A stretch of DNA of 64,000 bases. Source: Luteimonas sp. Lineage in GTDB: Bacteria; Pseudomonadota; Gammaproteobacteria; Xanthomonadales; Xanthomonadaceae. The notes beneath the pieces are model-generated. The model was not told the DNA's origin and ran no database searches. It saw only the letters and a list, made by a program, of their open reading frames with translations. Within the stretch, counting starts at the first letter, position 1, and each line of letters opens with the position of its first letter. The stretch spans positions 220,525-284,524 of the forward strand of contig JANPZU010000002.1 of NCBI GenBank assembly GCA_024707405.1. The letters run 5' to 3'. Below are positions 15,388 through 23,768 of this stretch, piece by piece. Position numbers and translations under genes: made by a program.

Positions 15388-16257
15388 TTATATGGAACGG
15401 ACGAGCACTTCGATGTGCGCCGGCAGCTTGAACCATCCTGGCGACAGATCAACCGGACGCTCAGACATCAACGCCCATGCCGTAGCCCAGAGTCCTGCGC
15501 GTCGGATAGCGGGATCGGCCACGCCCCGGAATGCGTCCCACCGGAGCTTCTTGACGGGCTCCTGCTGATGCAGGGGGCCGCGAATGAATCCCTTCAGATT
15601 GTCACTGACCTGGACGTACTTGGTCAGCGGGAAGTCCCTGACCTCATTCACGTTGAAGCTGACCGCTAGGAGCAGCTGGCGGGCGATCTGCGGATTGCCG
15701 CGCCACTCGCTTGGCCATGGATCCCCGAAATAGAGGGTTCGCTCCAAGGCCTCGCCGAAGGACTCGATCAGGTCGAGGATTTGCTGCTCTTGTTGCGTGA
15801 AGACAGGCGCTTGGAACGGGTGGGAAAGCGACGACGTTGCCCATTGCTCCGGGGCGAGGCGGAGTGGGCAGCCGTGGTCTGGGCATGTCGTGCGCAACGC
15901 TCGGTTCCAGCCGCGGCGGATGGAGCAGGGCACGCCCCGGGCCCGATCCTCGTTCCAGCACATCGGGCAATAGACGTTACGGGCCTGCGGTGCCAGTAGC
16001 CAAGATGCGTCTGGCTGACGGTGAAGCAAGAGATGGGATGCCGACATACCGATCGCGGTAGCCATCCTGCGCACAGCTGCGCAGGACGGCGACTCCACGT
16101 CTCCGGGCGGCCTCGGGTCATCCCTGTTCAGGGACGCCCAGAGCTGGCCCGGAGAGCGCTCGTACAGCGCGGCGGCGCGGCTCAACACCGAACGCAAGGA
16201 TTCGTCCGGCATCGGCGGCCGAATCCACCAGCGCTGATTGGTGACATCAGCTTTCAT
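15388..16257 (-). CDS. tniQ: TniQ family protein (transposition target selection)
   Basis: PMPDESLRSVLSRAAALYE...; zinc-finger-like NVYCPMCWNEDRARGVPCSIRRGWNRALRTTCPDHGCPL; follows tniB. Confidence 0.88.
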   Translation of the reverse strand: MKADVTNQRWWIRPPMPDESLRSVLSRAAALYERSPGQLWASLNRDDPRPPGDVESPSCAAVRRMATAIGMSASHLLLHRQPDASWLLAPQARNVYCPMCWNEDRARGVPCSIRRGWNRALRTTCPDHGCPLRLAPEQWATSSLSHPFQAPVFTQQEQQILDLIESFGEALERTLYFGDPWPSEWRGNPQIARQLLLAVSFNVNEVRDFPLTKYVQVSDNLKGFIRGPLHQQEPVKKLRWDAFRGVADPAIRRAGLWATAWALMSERPVDLSPGWFKLPAHIEVLVRSI

Positions 16258-17169
16258 GCGGCTTTTCGCAATCCGGCTTGCAGGGCGGCCTGCTTCGCTG
16301 CGGCAAGCGGTGGCTCGAACACCGCACGCTCAAGCAGTTTGGTCGTGATCTGATCTTCGCCAGTTTCGACGGCGTGGGCGGCCGCGTGCGTCACCAGTTG
16401 CATGATCGTCTGGAGCACGCCGCCAGACAGGCGGATCAAGTCGGCCGACAGCGTGGGCGACGACAGGTACGAGGGCTTGCGCAGAGGCAACGCCTTCTCG
16501 AGCGCATTGAGGAAGGTCGTCAGGTACTCGTCGCGCTTCCACAGTGGCAATTCCCTGTATTTGAACCGTGCGTTCAAGTGCTCGTCCACCTGCATGGCTG
16601 CAGGTGCCGAAGAGGTACCCAGCGTCAGGATCGGCAGCGACAATTCGTTCATCAGGAACTTGATGGTGTCCAACGCGATCCGTTGCTGCCGTGCAGTCGA
16701 CGTCAGGATGTCCTGGATTTCGTCGACGATCAGCAACCGCACGTCCGCCGTCCTGCAAAGCTTGAGCGCCATGCGTTCACGATCGTTGCCGGAATAGTTG
16801 CCGGGGTCTGGCACCCCGAACGCGCTCAGGATCCGGTTGTAGAGCCGTCTTGGCTTCACGAGCATTGGTCATGCTGATGACCAGGACGGGTTGGGTTGCG
16901 ACCTTGCCGTTCTCCGCGGGAGTCGGCGGGTAACGCCGCTGGATGGCTCGAGAGAGCATCGTCTTGCCTGAACCCGGTTTGCCGGAGACGACAAGTCCGC
17001 TTGCTCGCGTCTGGGGTGGCATGTGGATCAGGAATTCGATGTAGTTGAGGATCGGAACCAACCGCTCGTGGGTGATGAACCGCTCGGCAAGCATGCGACC
17101 GGCACGTTCTTCGGCGGGCAGATCCAGTTGATCCCGTACGCCGGGATCGAGATGGCTGAAATTGCTCAT
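16254..17169 (-). pseudogene. tniB: TniB AAA+ ATPase, split by an apparent frameshift near 16850-16880
   Basis: Frame A MSNFSHLDPG...VVSGKPGSGKTMLSRAIQRRYP...VLVISMTNAREAK (Walker A); frame B RRLYNRILSAFGVPDPG...VRLLIVDEIQDIL (Walker B); homology switches frame. Confidence 0.8.
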
Positions 17170-17179
17170 GGCTGTCTCC

Positions 17180-18952
17180 TCAGACCCATTCTTCGAGTTG
17201 GATGGCGGTACGGCTGGGCGACGCCGGGGGCGGGAGCTGGGGCGGTGCGGTCGAGTGCGACCCGGAAGGCGGCGCAGGTGGTTTCCCGGGACGCTTGTTC
17301 CCGCGGGCTTGGCGCGTGGCTTTCTGGGCGTTGGCCTCGATGCTGTCGGTGGCCTCGAATCCCTTGTCGGTCTCGGCATCCGTCCTGGCTTGGGTGACCT
17401 GATCCATGGAGTTCCTGATGCAGGACGTGCCCGCGGCCCGTCCACCGATCACGGGAGCGGTGACCAACACGCCGTCAGCGCGTCGAACCCATACCGCACT
17501 CGGGTCACGTGGGTCATAACGCACGCGAACAGCCGTGTCCGAGTTGAGCATGGGCGCAAGATCCTCATGCCAATAGCGCGAAGCATTCAGTTCTATGCCA
17601 GTACGGCGTACGAGGCGGTTCTCGAACGGCAGGAAGTCCATGCGGAATTTCAGCGGTTCCGAGATCAACGGCGGACTGACGATGTTTCCAGCCGCATCCG
17701 TAAGACTGCGCTCCCAGGCAACCACGGGTGGCAGGCTGAGTGCTCGATGCCGGCGCTGGTGGTAGAACCTGCAGACCTTCTGGGTCATCCAATCGCGGAA
17801 CTCATCCAGCGTCAGGCGAGCCTTGCCTTCGCTGTCGTAGTTGCCTCGTTCCCTGATGTTGCTGAAGGTCGTCCCCGGGAGAAGGTGTGCGATCTTCATG
17901 AGCGTGCCAATCAGCCGCTCGATATGTCCACCGTAGTGTGGCGTCCTCACAGGACGCCACGTCAGCTCGATCTGATGCTCGCCGCATCCGCGATCCAACG
18001 CCATGCTGCGGAAGTCCTTGCCGTTATCGACAAGGATCTTCCTGGGCTTGCCATACATGGGCCAGATTCCCGGATCGCTTGCGTTCTCTGGCTTCGGCAG
18101 TACGGCATGTTCAATGCACAGGGAGACGGCAACCGTCGACGGGGGATCCATCGAGATGTACATGCCGAGCACGCAGCGGGTTGCCACGTCGATCGCCACC
18201 GTGACCCAGGGGCGACCAAGGACGGTGAGCCGGTCATCGCTCAGGACCATGACATCTGCCGGGGTGTGGTCGATCTGGATCAGATCCAGCGGCTTGCTAA
18301 CGAACAGCCCGCCGGTACTCGGCTTCCATTTATGTCTTGCCGTGCGGCCGCCTTCGCGCGCCAGATCCGACGCCCAGCCGATCTCCTGATTCAGGCGAAG
18401 CAGGACGGCTTTTCGTGAAGGGGGCGGAAGGTGCAACCGCCTTGCCATCGACTGGGCCCGGATTACGACGTGTTCCTTCGGTGGCTTTTCACGACACATG
18501 TAATGCTTGGAAATGGCGTGCCGGATCAGCCCGTCGACCTTGGGATCAAGCAGGTTCAGTCCTGGCGGGCGTCCTCCCGGCTTGCGGGCCAGGGTGCTGG
18601 TCCGTGGGTCCTTCAAGAAGTCAGCACGGATGCGCTGTAGCTGCCTGACGCTCATGCCATGGCGCTTGGCAAGTTTTTCCAGTTCGCCGCGGGTGACTTG
18701 GCTGCGCTCGTTGAGCGGGGTCAGATCCCTGGCCAGCGCGACGCACCGCTTCCACTCGGCTTCCGGGATGGTGCCTGCCTCGGTGGCACTCGTCTTCGTC
18801 GGCAAGACTTCAATCTGCGAGATCGGCACGGAAATCATGTCACCCGTGCCCATGTCGCGGGCGCGCATGTGAGTCAGGGAGTCCGGCCCGTCGATCTGGA
18901 TGACGCGGCCGTTGGCCGCGCAGACGGTGCCCGGGTCAAGTTTCAAAGTCAT
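17180..18952 (-). CDS. tniA: TniA DDE transposase (Mu/TnsB-like, rve integrase core)
   Basis: 590 aa; LIQIDHTPADVMVLSD, ILVDNGKDFRS, HIERLIGTLMKIAHLLPGTTFSN (D,D,E). Confidence 0.92.
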   Translation of the reverse strand: MTLKLDPGTVCAANGRVIQIDGPDSLTHMRARDMGTGDMISVPISQIEVLPTKTSATEAGTIPEAEWKRCVALARDLTPLNERSQVTRGELEKLAKRHGMSVRQLQRIRADFLKDPRTSTLARKPGGRPPGLNLLDPKVDGLIRHAISKHYMCREKPPKEHVVIRAQSMARRLHLPPPSRKAVLLRLNQEIGWASDLAREGGRTARHKWKPSTGGLFVSKPLDLIQIDHTPADVMVLSDDRLTVLGRPWVTVAIDVATRCVLGMYISMDPPSTVAVSLCIEHAVLPKPENASDPGIWPMYGKPRKILVDNGKDFRSMALDRGCGEHQIELTWRPVRTPHYGGHIERLIGTLMKIAHLLPGTTFSNIRERGNYDSEGKARLTLDEFRDWMTQKVCRFYHQRRHRALSLPPVVAWERSLTDAAGNIVSPPLISEPLKFRMDFLPFENRLVRRTGIELNASRYWHEDLAPMLNSDTAVRVRYDPRDPSAVWVRRADGVLVTAPVIGGRAAGTSCIRNSMDQVTQARTDAETDKGFEATDSIEANAQKATRQARGNKRPGKPPAPPSGSHSTAPPQLPPPASPSRTAIQLEEWV

Positions 18953-19491
18953 CGGATGCTTCCTCCGTATTGATGCGTTCTCGCGCCATCGGGAGTGATG
19001 GGCGAAACACCGTCCTTGTTCTTCATCCGGGAACGAGGCCGTGTCTCATCAATTAGAGGGCTTGTTTTCAGGCATCCAAATTAGCGGGAGAAATTCCCGT
19101 GCCGCTTTTGCGGATCGCAAGAACTGCTTCTGCAGTCATCGGAAGTCGCGTGAGGACATCAATGGTGGATCGACTTGTCCGCCGACACGTCGTGGAGCAA
19201 CAGCCGAGGTCGCGTACTCCGATGATTCATCGGGTGTTTCCTTCTCAATGTCTTCACTGGACGGAGAACCGTTCCCCGTGACGTGCCCAGTGCGACGCCA
19301 CTTTCAAGCTTCCCGGAACTTCTTCGTCCTGACAGGACGCGCAACCGATGGCGCCTTGATCCACTGTCGACGCGGCTTGAATCTCTCCCGGAGGGCCTTG
19401 GATCTGACGAACGGAAAACTCCCGCCTATTTGGATTGATTCGAAGAACGTGCTCGCTTGAGAAGACATCCACACGTCGAAGGAGCACGAAA

Positions 19492-20589
19492 ATGTATGGG
19501 ATTGCGATTGAAGTGAAGTTCAACGCCGCTGTGTCCAGGCTGGTGGCCGCGTTGAAACAGGATGATCCAAGGAGGGTGTTGGACGATACCGGCACGGTGC
19601 AATTGTTGGCGGCGTTGAAACCAAGGACGGTCAGGGTGATCGCCGCCGATCTGGAAGCATGGCTGTCCTGGTGGCAAGGGAGGGCGCGGCAGGCGAGTGG
19701 GGCGTTACACGAGTCGATTCCGGCCTATACCAAGTTTCTTGCCGGCAGTGGCCTCAGTCAGAAGACCATAATTCGCTACCGGTACTCGATCAGACGAGTT
19801 CTGGCGGCTTTGGGATGCCCGGTGGATGAGCAAGCCATGGCTTACTCTTTCCATAACATCAACGGTCATTCAATCGTCGAAATAAAGCGGCTGACCGATC
19901 CCAAGGTCAAGCCATTTGGGTGGGACAAGATCAGGAAGTGTGTCCGGTGGGCAGATCCGGGCAATCGGCGCGAGGTGACGGCGTTGGCCGGAATGCTGGT
20001 GCTCTATGAGGCGATGGCATGGTCTGATCAGATTTTCGGCCACTATTCCGGCGGCACTTGGCATGTACCGCCTGCGCGTCGGGATGATCTGAAGTGGACG
20101 CCGAATGGAGGTGCTCGCTTGCGCTTGGCGCCAATGAAGCGGGGCGATACTGCCCGTTATGCGGCGCTATCCCCTTTGGTCACGGAATGGATTGGGCGCG
20201 CCCATTCGTTCGGTGAAAGCCATGACCAATCCCTGTTGACCGGAAACTGGGGGTATGCGCTGCTCCACCACACGTGGGATCGATGGGAGAAGGGCCTGAT
20301 TTCACGATCCGGGATGGACGCCGGGAAGTTTACGTCTGCTTCCCTGAGGCTGGGCATGGTGAAGGATCTGGAGGCCGCCGGTTTTGCTGTCGGCGAAGTT
20401 CTGGAACAGGACGGCTGGGCACACCGTTTTCCGATTCGCTGTCTTCTTCATGGGGAGTCCGCAGGCGGAGCGAGGCACATGACGCTGCCTCATCACAAGT
20501 GGATACAGTCGAACAGAAGAAACTACCTGCCTTCCTCTCCGACAGGAAGGAAATATGTGGTGTCGCAGATGTCCCTTCCCGGGCTATGA
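19492..20589 (+). CDS. Tyrosine-recombinase/integrase-like protein with degenerate catalytic motifs
   Basis: Core-binding-like N-terminus (IPAYTKFLAGSGLSQKTIIRYRYSIRRVLAALG) and catalytic-fold C-terminus (SASLRLGMVKDLEAAGFAVGEVLEQDGWAHRF); divergent from tniA. Confidence 0.62.
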   Translation: MYGIAIEVKFNAAVSRLVAALKQDDPRRVLDDTGTVQLLAALKPRTVRVIAADLEAWLSWWQGRARQASGALHESIPAYTKFLAGSGLSQKTIIRYRYSIRRVLAALGCPVDEQAMAYSFHNINGHSIVEIKRLTDPKVKPFGWDKIRKCVRWADPGNRREVTALAGMLVLYEAMAWSDQIFGHYSGGTWHVPPARRDDLKWTPNGGARLRLAPMKRGDTARYAALSPLVTEWIGRAHSFGESHDQSLLTGNWGYALLHHTWDRWEKGLISRSGMDAGKFTSASLRLGMVKDLEAAGFAVGEVLEQDGWAHRFPIRCLLHGESAGGARHMTLPHHKWIQSNRRNYLPSSPTGRKYVVSQMSLPGL

Positions 20590-20945: not shown

Positions 20946-21218
20946 ATGAGCGCCGTCGCAAGCAGAGTCATCAATTTCCGGGCACCAGCTGCCAAGCAGG
21001 CGCTCATTGACCACGCTGTGGAAGTTAGCGGCATGAATCGTACGGAGTTCATCCTGGACGCTGTGTGCGAAAAGGCGCGCGAGGTGTTGGCGGATCAGAC
21101 CCAGTTCTCCATGAGCCGGCAGGCCCTGCAGCGCTTCAATGCCTTGCTCGATGCGCCGCTGGCGAACAACGCGGCGATCCGTCGTTTGCTGACCACCCCG
21201 GCGCCTTGGGAGCGCTGA
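20946..21218 (+). CDS. DUF1778 (TacA/AtaR-like) type II antitoxin
   Basis: RVINFRAPAAKQALIDHAVEVSGMNRTEFILDAVCEKAREVL; 3 bp upstream of GNAT gene. Confidence 0.9.
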   Translation: MSAVASRVINFRAPAAKQALIDHAVEVSGMNRTEFILDAVCEKAREVLADQTQFSMSRQALQRFNALLDAPLANNAAIRRLLTTPAPWER

Positions 21219-21221
21219 GCC

Positions 21222-21698
21222 TTGGCGCTCGGCGCCCCCAGCCCGCTTAACGACGAGCACCGGCTGGACGACTTCCAGTGCGCGGCGCCGGAGCTCACCA
21301 AGTGGCTGCTGGAGCGCGCCCGTCAGAATCAGGCATCGGGGGCGTCCCGGTGCTTTGTCGTCTGTGACGAGCAACAAAACGTGGTGGGCTACTACGCGCT
21401 AGCGGCTGGTGCGGTATCGCATGAGCATGCGCCGGGTCGCATCCGTCGCAACATGCCAGATCCCATACCCGTCATCGTGCTGGGGCGTCTGGCCGTGCAT
21501 GTGGACATGACCGGCCAAGGCATCGGCCAGGGCCTACTTAAGGACGCCGTGCAGCGGACGTTGCAGACAAGTGAGCAGGTTGGCGCCCGCGCGCTGCTTT
21601 GCCATGCCATCGATGACGCAGCGAAGGCGTTCTATCTCAAGCATGGTTTTGTCGAATCCCCTATCCATGACATGACGGTGATGCTGCCACTCAGGTAG
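21222..21698 (+). CDS. GNAT-family toxin (TacT/AtaT-like)
   Basis: LARLAVHVDMTGQGIGQGLLKDAV-type acetyl-CoA loop (LGRLAVHVDMTGQGIGQGLLKDAVQRTL), AKAFYLKHGF; paired with DUF1778. Confidence 0.9.
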   Translation: MALGAPSPLNDEHRLDDFQCAAPELTKWLLERARQNQASGASRCFVVCDEQQNVVGYYALAAGAVSHEHAPGRIRRNMPDPIPVIVLGRLAVHVDMTGQGIGQGLLKDAVQRTLQTSEQVGARALLCHAIDDAAKAFYLKHGFVESPIHDMTVMLPLR

Positions 21699-21815
21699 CG
21701 CCCATGCGCTAGCGTCGCGCCGTGTGAGACAGGCGCGCACTACGTTTTGCCATGTTTGGCAGCAGGCGGCATAGTCATGCGTTCAATCGCAACCAGCTAT
21801 CCATCGGACATCGCA

Positions 21816-23768
21816 ATGGCCAAGAAAGGCAAAGCAGCCAACGAGGCGCTCTTTGAAGAAGACTACGTGCTGCGTTCGCTGGGCCGCATTGGCTACGATC
21901 CGGACATCGCACTGACTGAGCTGGTGGCCAATACCTGGGATGCGGGTGCTGCCAAGGTTGCTGTGATCATCCCGACTGATACAGGCGGGTTACTGTCTGT
22001 CGAAGACGATGGCCATGGGATGACCGAGGATCAGTTCCGCAAGCGTTGGATGACCTTGGGATACAACCGGCAAAAGACCCAAGGCGATAACGTCCACTTT
22101 CCAACGGATCGCGCCGATTGGATGCGCAAGGCCTTCGGGCGCAATGGCATTGGTCGCCATGGTCTGTTGTGTTTCTCCGACCACTACACCGTCGAAACCT
22201 GGGTGAATGGCATGCTCTCGACGTTCGTTATCGGGACGAGAAATCAGCCATCGCCGTTCTATATCCACAGCCACGAAACCGGCGAACGATTGGGTCACGG
22301 CACCCGGTTGTTGGTGGAGGTGGAACGGCACCGCCCGGATCCGGATCGGATCAGGACGGTCTTGTCGGGCCGCTTCCTCCACGATCCGCAGTTCGTCGTC
22401 TCGGTGAACGGTCAGTCCGTCCCGCTATCCGAGCATGAGGGACTGCTGGAAGAGCGCAAAATGCAGGTCGAGCCGGGACTCAACATCACGGCCTATGTGG
22501 TGGACACGACGCGCACGGCCAAGTCCACGCGCTACCAAGGCATTGCGTTCTGGGTGAGTAGCCGATTGGTGGGTCTGCCGAGCTGGACGGTTGGGCCGAT
22601 GGCCGTTCTGGACGGACGGGTGCGCTTCGCCAAGCGCTACGCCATCGTGATCGAGTGCGGAGCGGAGTGGTTGTCCGAAGTCGAATCGGACTGGTCGAAG
22701 TTCAAGACCACGGAACGCACGGAGCGCCTCTTTGAGGCGGTCAATGAGTACGCCCAGGAAATGGTCGAGAAGCTGTCGGCCAACCTGATCGAGGAGAACT
22801 CCGAGGACGCGCTTTACAAGAACCGGGAAGATCTGCGGACGCTGCCGCGTCGTTCCATGCTTGAGGTTGCCCAGTTCACCAAGACTGTGGTGCATGACCA
22901 GCCAGGCATACCGCCCGAGACCCTCAACAAGGTAGTCAAGGCGGTAATCAAGATTCAGAAGGCACGCAGCGGCGCAAGTTTTCTCGACAAGCTGATGCAG
23001 CTCGATGAGCATGACATCGACGGCTTGGATCGTCTGCTCGGACAATGGACGGTGGAGGACGCGCTCACCGTGCTCGATGAGATCGACAATCGCCTGTCGA
23101 TCATCGCCGCCATGGAGAAGCTCAGCGGCGACCCGGAGGCGGACGAGTTGCATACGCTTCATCCACTCGTAACACAGGCGCGTTGGTTGTTCGGGCCGGA
23201 GTTTGATAGCTCGGAGTACGCATCTAACAACACGCTGCGCACGGTCGCCACCAGCCTTTTCAAGGCTAAGAGGGAAGATCAGGCATTCGCCAACGCCGCA
23301 AAGCGCCCTGACATCGTCGTCCTTTCGGACGCCACGATTTCAATCGTTGCCACTGAGAGTTTCGATAGTGCACGCGGCCACCTGGCAACGATGCGTGATG
23401 TTCTGCTCATCGAGTTGAAGAAGGGGTGTTCTGAAATTGGTCGCCCCGAAATGAATCAGGCGGCAGGCTATGTCGATGATCTTGTCTCTAGCGGAGGCAT
23501 TGAAGGGACGCCGTTCTTCCATGCTTACGTTGTCGGTCACACGGTGGCGTCCAACATCTCGAATGTGAATCCTCGTGAGTTCAATGGCGTTCTGCGTGGT
23601 CGTGTTACGGCTACTACCTACAACCAGCTAGCTTTGACTGCGAATAAACGCCTGCATGGATTGAAGGCGCGCATCCCCTCTCGGTATGAAGAGGTTTCTG
23701 GCTATGACCTCGTCCAAAAGGTGATGGGAACGCCAAGTCAGGCATCGCTGGTGCCGTCGGCCGACTAG
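21816..23768 (+). CDS. GHKL (Bergerat-fold) ATPase with C-terminal PD-(D/E)XK-like domain; defence candidate
   Basis: N box ELVANTWDAGA, G1 VEDDGHGM, G2 GRNGIGRHGL; C-terminal RPDIVVLSD...DVLLIELKKG...EMNQAAGYVDDL; start could also be 21777 or 21747. Confidence 0.75.
   Translation: MAKKGKAANEALFEEDYVLRSLGRIGYDPDIALTELVANTWDAGAAKVAVIIPTDTGGLLSVEDDGHGMTEDQFRKRWMTLGYNRQKTQGDNVHFPTDRADWMRKAFGRNGIGRHGLLCFSDHYTVETWVNGMLSTFVIGTRNQPSPFYIHSHETGERLGHGTRLLVEVERHRPDPDRIRTVLSGRFLHDPQFVVSVNGQSVPLSEHEGLLEERKMQVEPGLNITAYVVDTTRTAKSTRYQGIAFWVSSRLVGLPSWTVGPMAVLDGRVRFAKRYAIVIECGAEWLSEVESDWSKFKTTERTERLFEAVNEYAQEMVEKLSANLIEENSEDALYKNREDLRTLPRRSMLEVAQFTKTVVHDQPGIPPETLNKVVKAVIKIQKARSGASFLDKLMQLDEHDIDGLDRLLGQWTVEDALTVLDEIDNRLSIIAAMEKLSGDPEADELHTLHPLVTQARWLFGPEFDSSEYASNNTLRTVATSLFKAKREDQAFANAAKRPDIVVLSDATISIVATESFDSARGHLATMRDVLLIELKKGCSEIGRPEMNQAAGYVDDLVSSGGIEGTPFFHAYVVGHTVASNISNVNPREFNGVLRGRVTATTYNQLALTANKRLHGLKARIPSRYEEVSGYDLVQKVMGTPSQASLVPSAD

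Follow-up and report, generated by a model that had tools for sequence, protein, structure and literature searches.

Iyer, Abhiman and Aravind (2008) described the paraMORC3 proteins, in which a GHKL domain and an S5 domain are combined with a C-terminal restriction-endonuclease domain with the motif E-D-ExK; a stand-alone subset, found mainly in proteobacteria and bacteroidetes, is without conserved neighbours (PMC2292703). VcSduA, reported in 2025 and classified as Shedu type I-D, carries a GHKL domain followed by a DUF4263 nuclease in one gene. It blocks phages in its native host as well as in E. coli, this protection is lost upon the substitutions E27A and K557A, the host survives at all MOIs, and 543 homologues were reported (PMC12137116). 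In the type I Shedu protein EcSduA, an N-terminal clamp binds DNA ends, and nicks are made at a fixed distance (PMC12904381).

Here, a single gene from Luteimonas sp. was compared with these systems. It lies in the window, i.e. the whole stretch of 64,000 nucleotides that was analysed, and the features are as follows.

15388 to 18952, - strand: tniA/tniB/tniQ.
20946 to 21218: TacA gene of a TA pair.
21222 to 21698: GNAT gene of the TA pair.
21747 to 21775, + strand: sigma-70-like promoter site, TTGCCA-17-CATAGT, whose -10 hexamer and spacing do not vary among five xanthomonad loci.
21816 to 23768, + strand: gene for the 650-aa GHKL ATPase and PD-(D/E)XK protein, an intact open reading frame with 40 homologous loci.
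21897 to 22325, + strand: GHKL (Bergerat-fold) ATPase domain, from PF13589, invariant residues and Foldseek matches to Hsp90/MORC; N box E35/N39, D64xG66xG68, lid G108-N110-G111-G113-G116, and G162-T163.
22326 to 22715, + strand: S5-like transducer region, from AlphaFold2 secondary structure and conservation, its role assigned by analogy.
22713 to 23249, + strand: helical middle region, about residues 300-478, from the AlphaFold2 model (pLDDT about 58-81).
23145 to 23681, + strand: predicted Shedu-like PD-(D/E)XK nuclease domain, from invariant residues, profile homology and a model; W457LFGPE462, R497PD499, E533-L-K535, Q548 and Y552.

The original prediction did not recognise the protein as a named system. 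The GHKL-nuclease architecture is, however, already known: it is that of paraMORC3 (PMC2292703), it has been tested as VcSduA (PMC12137116), and the protein can moreover be aligned from end to end with the BbrUII/HgiDII restriction enzymes. The protein lies on a branch that is separate from the BbrUII-type proteins and that is without their usual protective methylase partner.

The open reading frame runs uninterrupted from the ATG at 21816 to the TAG at 23768 and encodes 650 residues; the gene is present as a single copy in the host genome, and its start is backed by the alignment of relatives. An alternative ATG at 21777, whose surroundings are conserved in five loci, was considered but rejected, since it comes immediately after the -10 hexamer and would lie ahead of the point where transcription is expected to begin. 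From the end of the promoter-like site to the start codon there are 40 bp. In the five xanthomonad loci its -35 element varies, whereas the -10 element and the spacing are constant, and the conservation of the site just upstream of the gene, despite a divergent spacer, suggests that the gene is transcribed separately.

In an alignment of 30 sequences (41-91% identity to the query) spanning Pseudomonadota, Bacillota, Bacteroidota, Acidobacteriota and Thermodesulfobacteriota, E35, N39, D64, G66, G68, N110, G111 and G113 exhibited no variation, and neither did the C-terminal residues W457, E462, D499, E533, K535 and Q548. Among seven relatives at a greater distance, almost all keep the D, the ExK and the Q, and E462 differs in three of them. 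Since the key residues are invariant in the 30 sequences, and the D, ExK and Q persist in almost all of the distant relatives, the motifs are not a product of chance. Those read in the original prediction were all confirmed: ELVANTWDAGA corresponds to residues 35-45 (E35/N39), VEDDGHGM contains D64/G66/G68 and GRNGIGRHGL covers residues 108-117, and on the nuclease side RPD is found at 497-499, IELKKG with E533/K535, and MNQAAGY with Q548/Y552. In the transducer region K273 is near-invariant (28 of 30 K, the other two R), which by analogy makes it a candidate ATP-contacting lysine.

The ATPase domain was matched by Pfam HATPase_c_3 (PF13589; E 7e-16, residues 28-136), and in Foldseek the GHKL part matched Hsp90/TRAP1 and MORC2/MORC3 at about 1e-11 to 1e-13. 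MutL/PMS2 and MORC/Hsp90 thus share the ATPase domain, but differ in their C-terminal domains. An alpha+beta region (about 176-290) follows the GHKL domain in the AlphaFold2 model, where S5 would be expected. The full-length model, with a pTM of 0.53, is too low in confidence for the domain arrangement to be read from it. The C-terminal 234 residues modeled with a mean pLDDT of 81 and a pTM of 0.81, and the order of secondary structure elements, alpha-beta-beta-beta-alpha-beta, is that of PD-(D/E)XK enzymes, with D499 on the first strand and the ExK on the third. Read from the secondary structure, this order agrees with the fold foreseen for the C-terminus, but fold comparison added little: Foldseek of the C-terminal model against PDB and viral libraries yielded no structure that reached E 0.001, only weak matches to the PD-(D/E)XK enzymes AspBHI and EndoMS were obtained, and a PDB sequence search with the C-terminal profile gave no match.

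The assignment of the domain as a nuclease is based on comparing profiles. The Pfam scan left the nuclease domain of the 650-aa protein unmatched, and SduA_C/DUF4263 (PF14082) matched none of the 30 family members up to E 1. For HHalign, a family profile was used to which distant plasmid copies (Azospirillum, Rhizobium, Tritonibacter, Agrobacterium) and three genome copies had been added. Over its whole length this profile matched BbrUII/HgiDII-type proteins with a probability of 100 (E 7.7e-51, 558 columns), and the C-terminus alone matched BbrUII-type C-termini with a probability of 99.3 (E 3e-20) and a score of 133, compared to a top score of 17.6 among 60 column-shuffled controls; with the close family alone the latter comparison gave E 5.6e-15. 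The BbrUII-type C-termini in turn matched classical Shedu SduA_C (probability 97.4, E 1.5e-11). On the other hand, direct comparison of the C-terminus with SduA_C was weak when the distant members were included (probability 33, E 4.5e-4), and not significant with the close family only. The Shedu-like reading of the domain is thus supported indirectly, because SduA_C is reached through the BbrUII-type C-termini. Of the proposed Shedu/DUF4263-like C-terminus, the Shedu-like part is upheld through these intermediates while a DUF4263 match is absent; the broader claim, that a GHKL ATPase and a Shedu-like PD-(D/E)XK nuclease are united in one polypeptide, is borne out by the invariant motifs and the profile homology.

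Compared with paraMORC3, the protein exhibits the same N-terminal GHKL domain, an alpha+beta region that may correspond to S5, the expected restriction-endonuclease core E-D-ExK (E462, D499, E533-x-K535) and the same lack of conserved neighbours (PMC2292703); no difference was found, the members in the 2008 paper being compared by description only. With VcSduA it has in common a GHKL ATPase followed by a PD-(D/E)XK nuclease in a single gene, but it is set apart, judging from the description of VcSduA, by the DUF4263 domain reported there, as PF14082 is unmatched here. Classical SduA (Pfam PF14082) is linked through its nuclease core, whereas the sampled classical proteins are without a GHKL domain. 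Two very distant GHKL-nuclease relatives (L140 and L141) were matched by the C-terminal profile, lie on a long separate branch and are possibly further subfamilies.

The end-to-end homology to the BbrUII/HgiDII family (NCBIfam NF050001), together with the single C5 DNA methyltransferase that the host genome encodes on another contig, would fit an ordinary type II restriction enzyme of this kind, with specificity for a sequence and with its protecting methyltransferase elsewhere in the genome. We consider this unlikely. The 650-aa protein scores 92.7 bits against NF050001, for which the cut-off is 550, and the best stretch of the match lies in the ATPase domain. Furthermore, a DNA methyltransferase was found within 3 kb in only one of the 50 loci of the stand-alone branch, and there it is an independent MmeI-type gene, as opposed to eight of nine BbrUII-type loci, where the methyltransferases are 0-463 bp away (Fisher p 3.6e-8; 2.1e-7 without short-flank loci). 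These counts were made with three queries, two for C5 and one for MmeI-type enzymes; for other types the Pfam scan of 121 neighbours sets the limit, and it gave no methyltransferase family in two or more of them. No DNA methyltransferase of the searched kinds is found near the window gene, and spread across phyla would be hard for an enzyme with an unlinked partner.

In a tree of 35 proteins the close family groups with the plasmid relatives (100/99) and most BbrUII-type proteins form another group (99/100), but the two are not cleanly separated, since two rows of BbrUII type and two distant ones sit on long branches between them. The BbrUII/HgiDII restriction enzymes and the GHKL-Shedu proteins look like one family. 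Within it, one GHKL protein (L083/L145) combines a marginal SduA_C match, as in the VcSduA architecture, with a Dcm methyltransferase directly alongside; a VcSduA-like assignment was rejected on account of this neighbour, and the protein was treated as BbrUII-type. In the E. coli phage PhiR44_1 (L023, 5968-9016), which has P2-type genes, a gene annotated as paraMORC3 adjoins a Dcm gene, and this pair is a BbrUII-type restriction-modification pair carried as phage cargo.

The original prediction proposed a candidate anti-phage system, and defence as the likeliest role is upheld by the conserved motifs, the defence genes beside homologues and the BbrUII/HgiDII homology. Neighbours of the homologues include GajA (Gabija), AriA (PARIS), MkoA (Mokosh), HmaC (Hma), SIR2-HerA (as in L025), AbiU, DarT with a macro-domain protein (as in G172), Mrr, McrBC, HsdR, MmeI, Cas9 and AbiEii. 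MmeI and Cas9 are near the Azospirillum copy, while the genes close to the Rhizobium copy encode a restriction endonuclease, a UvrD-type helicase and an ATP-binding protein. When the 121 adjoining genes were compared with PADLOC, 356 models matched at E 1e-10 or better, among them GajA, AriA, MkoA, HmaC, SIR2, HerA, AbiU, DarG and type I and type IV restriction enzymes, whereas 25 models matched in 43 window genes outside the element. We take this as supporting evidence only, because the control comprises few genes, all of a single genome, and there is much redundancy among the models. On an IMG/VR contig catalogued as viral (L155, 860-9917), a 46%-identical homologue is preceded by HsdR, a YgjP-like protein and an AAA/McrBC pair, and all of these genes point the same way.

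Besides the host, the C-terminal profile was found in three of the 398 genomes sampled from the phylum, three other full-length homologues were found in 200 related genomes, and homologues are spread over the same five phyla as the alignment; such patchy, cross-phylum occurrence is as expected for horizontally moving defence genes. An 80%-identical copy in a genome of the same genus is located elsewhere on the chromosome, far from rarA. These data also bear on a role in DNA repair or recombination rather than defence, with the protein as a MutL/EndoMS-like clamp plus nuclease. MutL is built on the plan of a GHKL clamp with a nuclease, the C-terminal fold has a weak similarity to EndoMS/NucS, and repair genes lie near one plasmid relative. 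Given the patchy occurrence and the defence genes as neighbours, however, we regard such a role as very improbable.

A stand-alone paraMORC3-type (GHKL-Shedu) defence nuclease, working in outline as an ATP-gated DNA clamp, is the explanation that we favour with fair confidence, and an ATP-gated, methylation-independent Shedu-type defence nuclease is the probable best reading. By analogy to MutL/MORC and to the modelling of VcSduA, from which we infer the clamp, the dimerisation and the trigger, the protein would dimerise, and ATP binding by the GHKL domains would close a clamp, formed by the transducer and the helical middle region, around foreign DNA. The clamped DNA would be in a state that the host chromosome seldom offers, e.g. 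a free end or a replication or recombination intermediate. The GHKL domain and the middle region would thereby take the role of the N-terminal clamp of EcSduA. Once closed, the clamp would bring the DNA within reach of two PD-(D/E)XK sites and so license nicking or cutting, and ATP hydrolysis would reset it. Self and non-self would be told apart by DNA state or by a phage factor, and not by methylation. The nuclease might instead also cut host DNA, as an abortive-infection effector, or act mainly on plasmids. Heterologous Shedu expression can be toxic (PMC12904381) and some homologues are plasmid-borne, but VcSduA, with the same architecture, protects without host killing at all MOIs (PMC12137116), and we give this alternative little credence.

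If the defence reading is taken further, the branch separate from BbrUII/HgiDII may have lost, or never had, a methyltransferase and may sense the state of DNA through the ATP-driven clamp, a proposal that we make tentatively and hold at somewhat less than even chances. A relative of restriction enzymes would then be a methylation-independent sensor of DNA state, linking type II restriction enzymes and Shedu. By homology, the GHKL-Shedu defence proteins and the BbrUII/HgiDII restriction enzymes belong to a single superfamily. Their different linkage to methyltransferases raises the question of how a restriction-enzyme relative spares the chromosome of its host when methylation does not protect it. 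The branch is named at the family level in none of Pfam, NCBIfam and the 2023 PADLOC set, which match mainly its ATPase domain, so defence surveys based on them would probably miss it.

In the window the tni genes (tniA, tniB and tniQ) are followed by the TacA/GNAT pair and then by the gene of the 650-aa protein. The gene had been placed next to a TA pair and within a mobile element, and both the pair and the tni genes are indeed present, but the neighbours are unconserved and the end of an enclosing transposon was not found. The neighbourhood survey of 44 loci gave no neighbour family in more than four. The TA pair, considered as a functional partner, was rejected as it is not conserved across the homologous loci; its position beside the gene is incidental, and neither the pair nor the tni genes look to be part of the system. 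The repeat pairs listed between 15150 and 25200 gave no convincing transposon ends around the gene, and no empty site was seen in relatives compared downstream of rarA. The placement carries little weight as evidence for the role, because there is no conserved neighbour, the gene has its own promoter-like site in xanthomonads, and it was not placed inside the tni element. The tniB gene (16254-17445, - strand) is apparently split by a frameshift, with profile positions 5-80 in 16777-17445 and 84-188 in 16254-16865; the transposition module may therefore be inactive, or the assembly wrong at this point. Between tniA and the TA pair, a 384-aa open reading frame (19435-20589, + strand) exhibited only a sub-threshold match to a phage-integrase SAM-like domain and is a possible recombinase or remnant.
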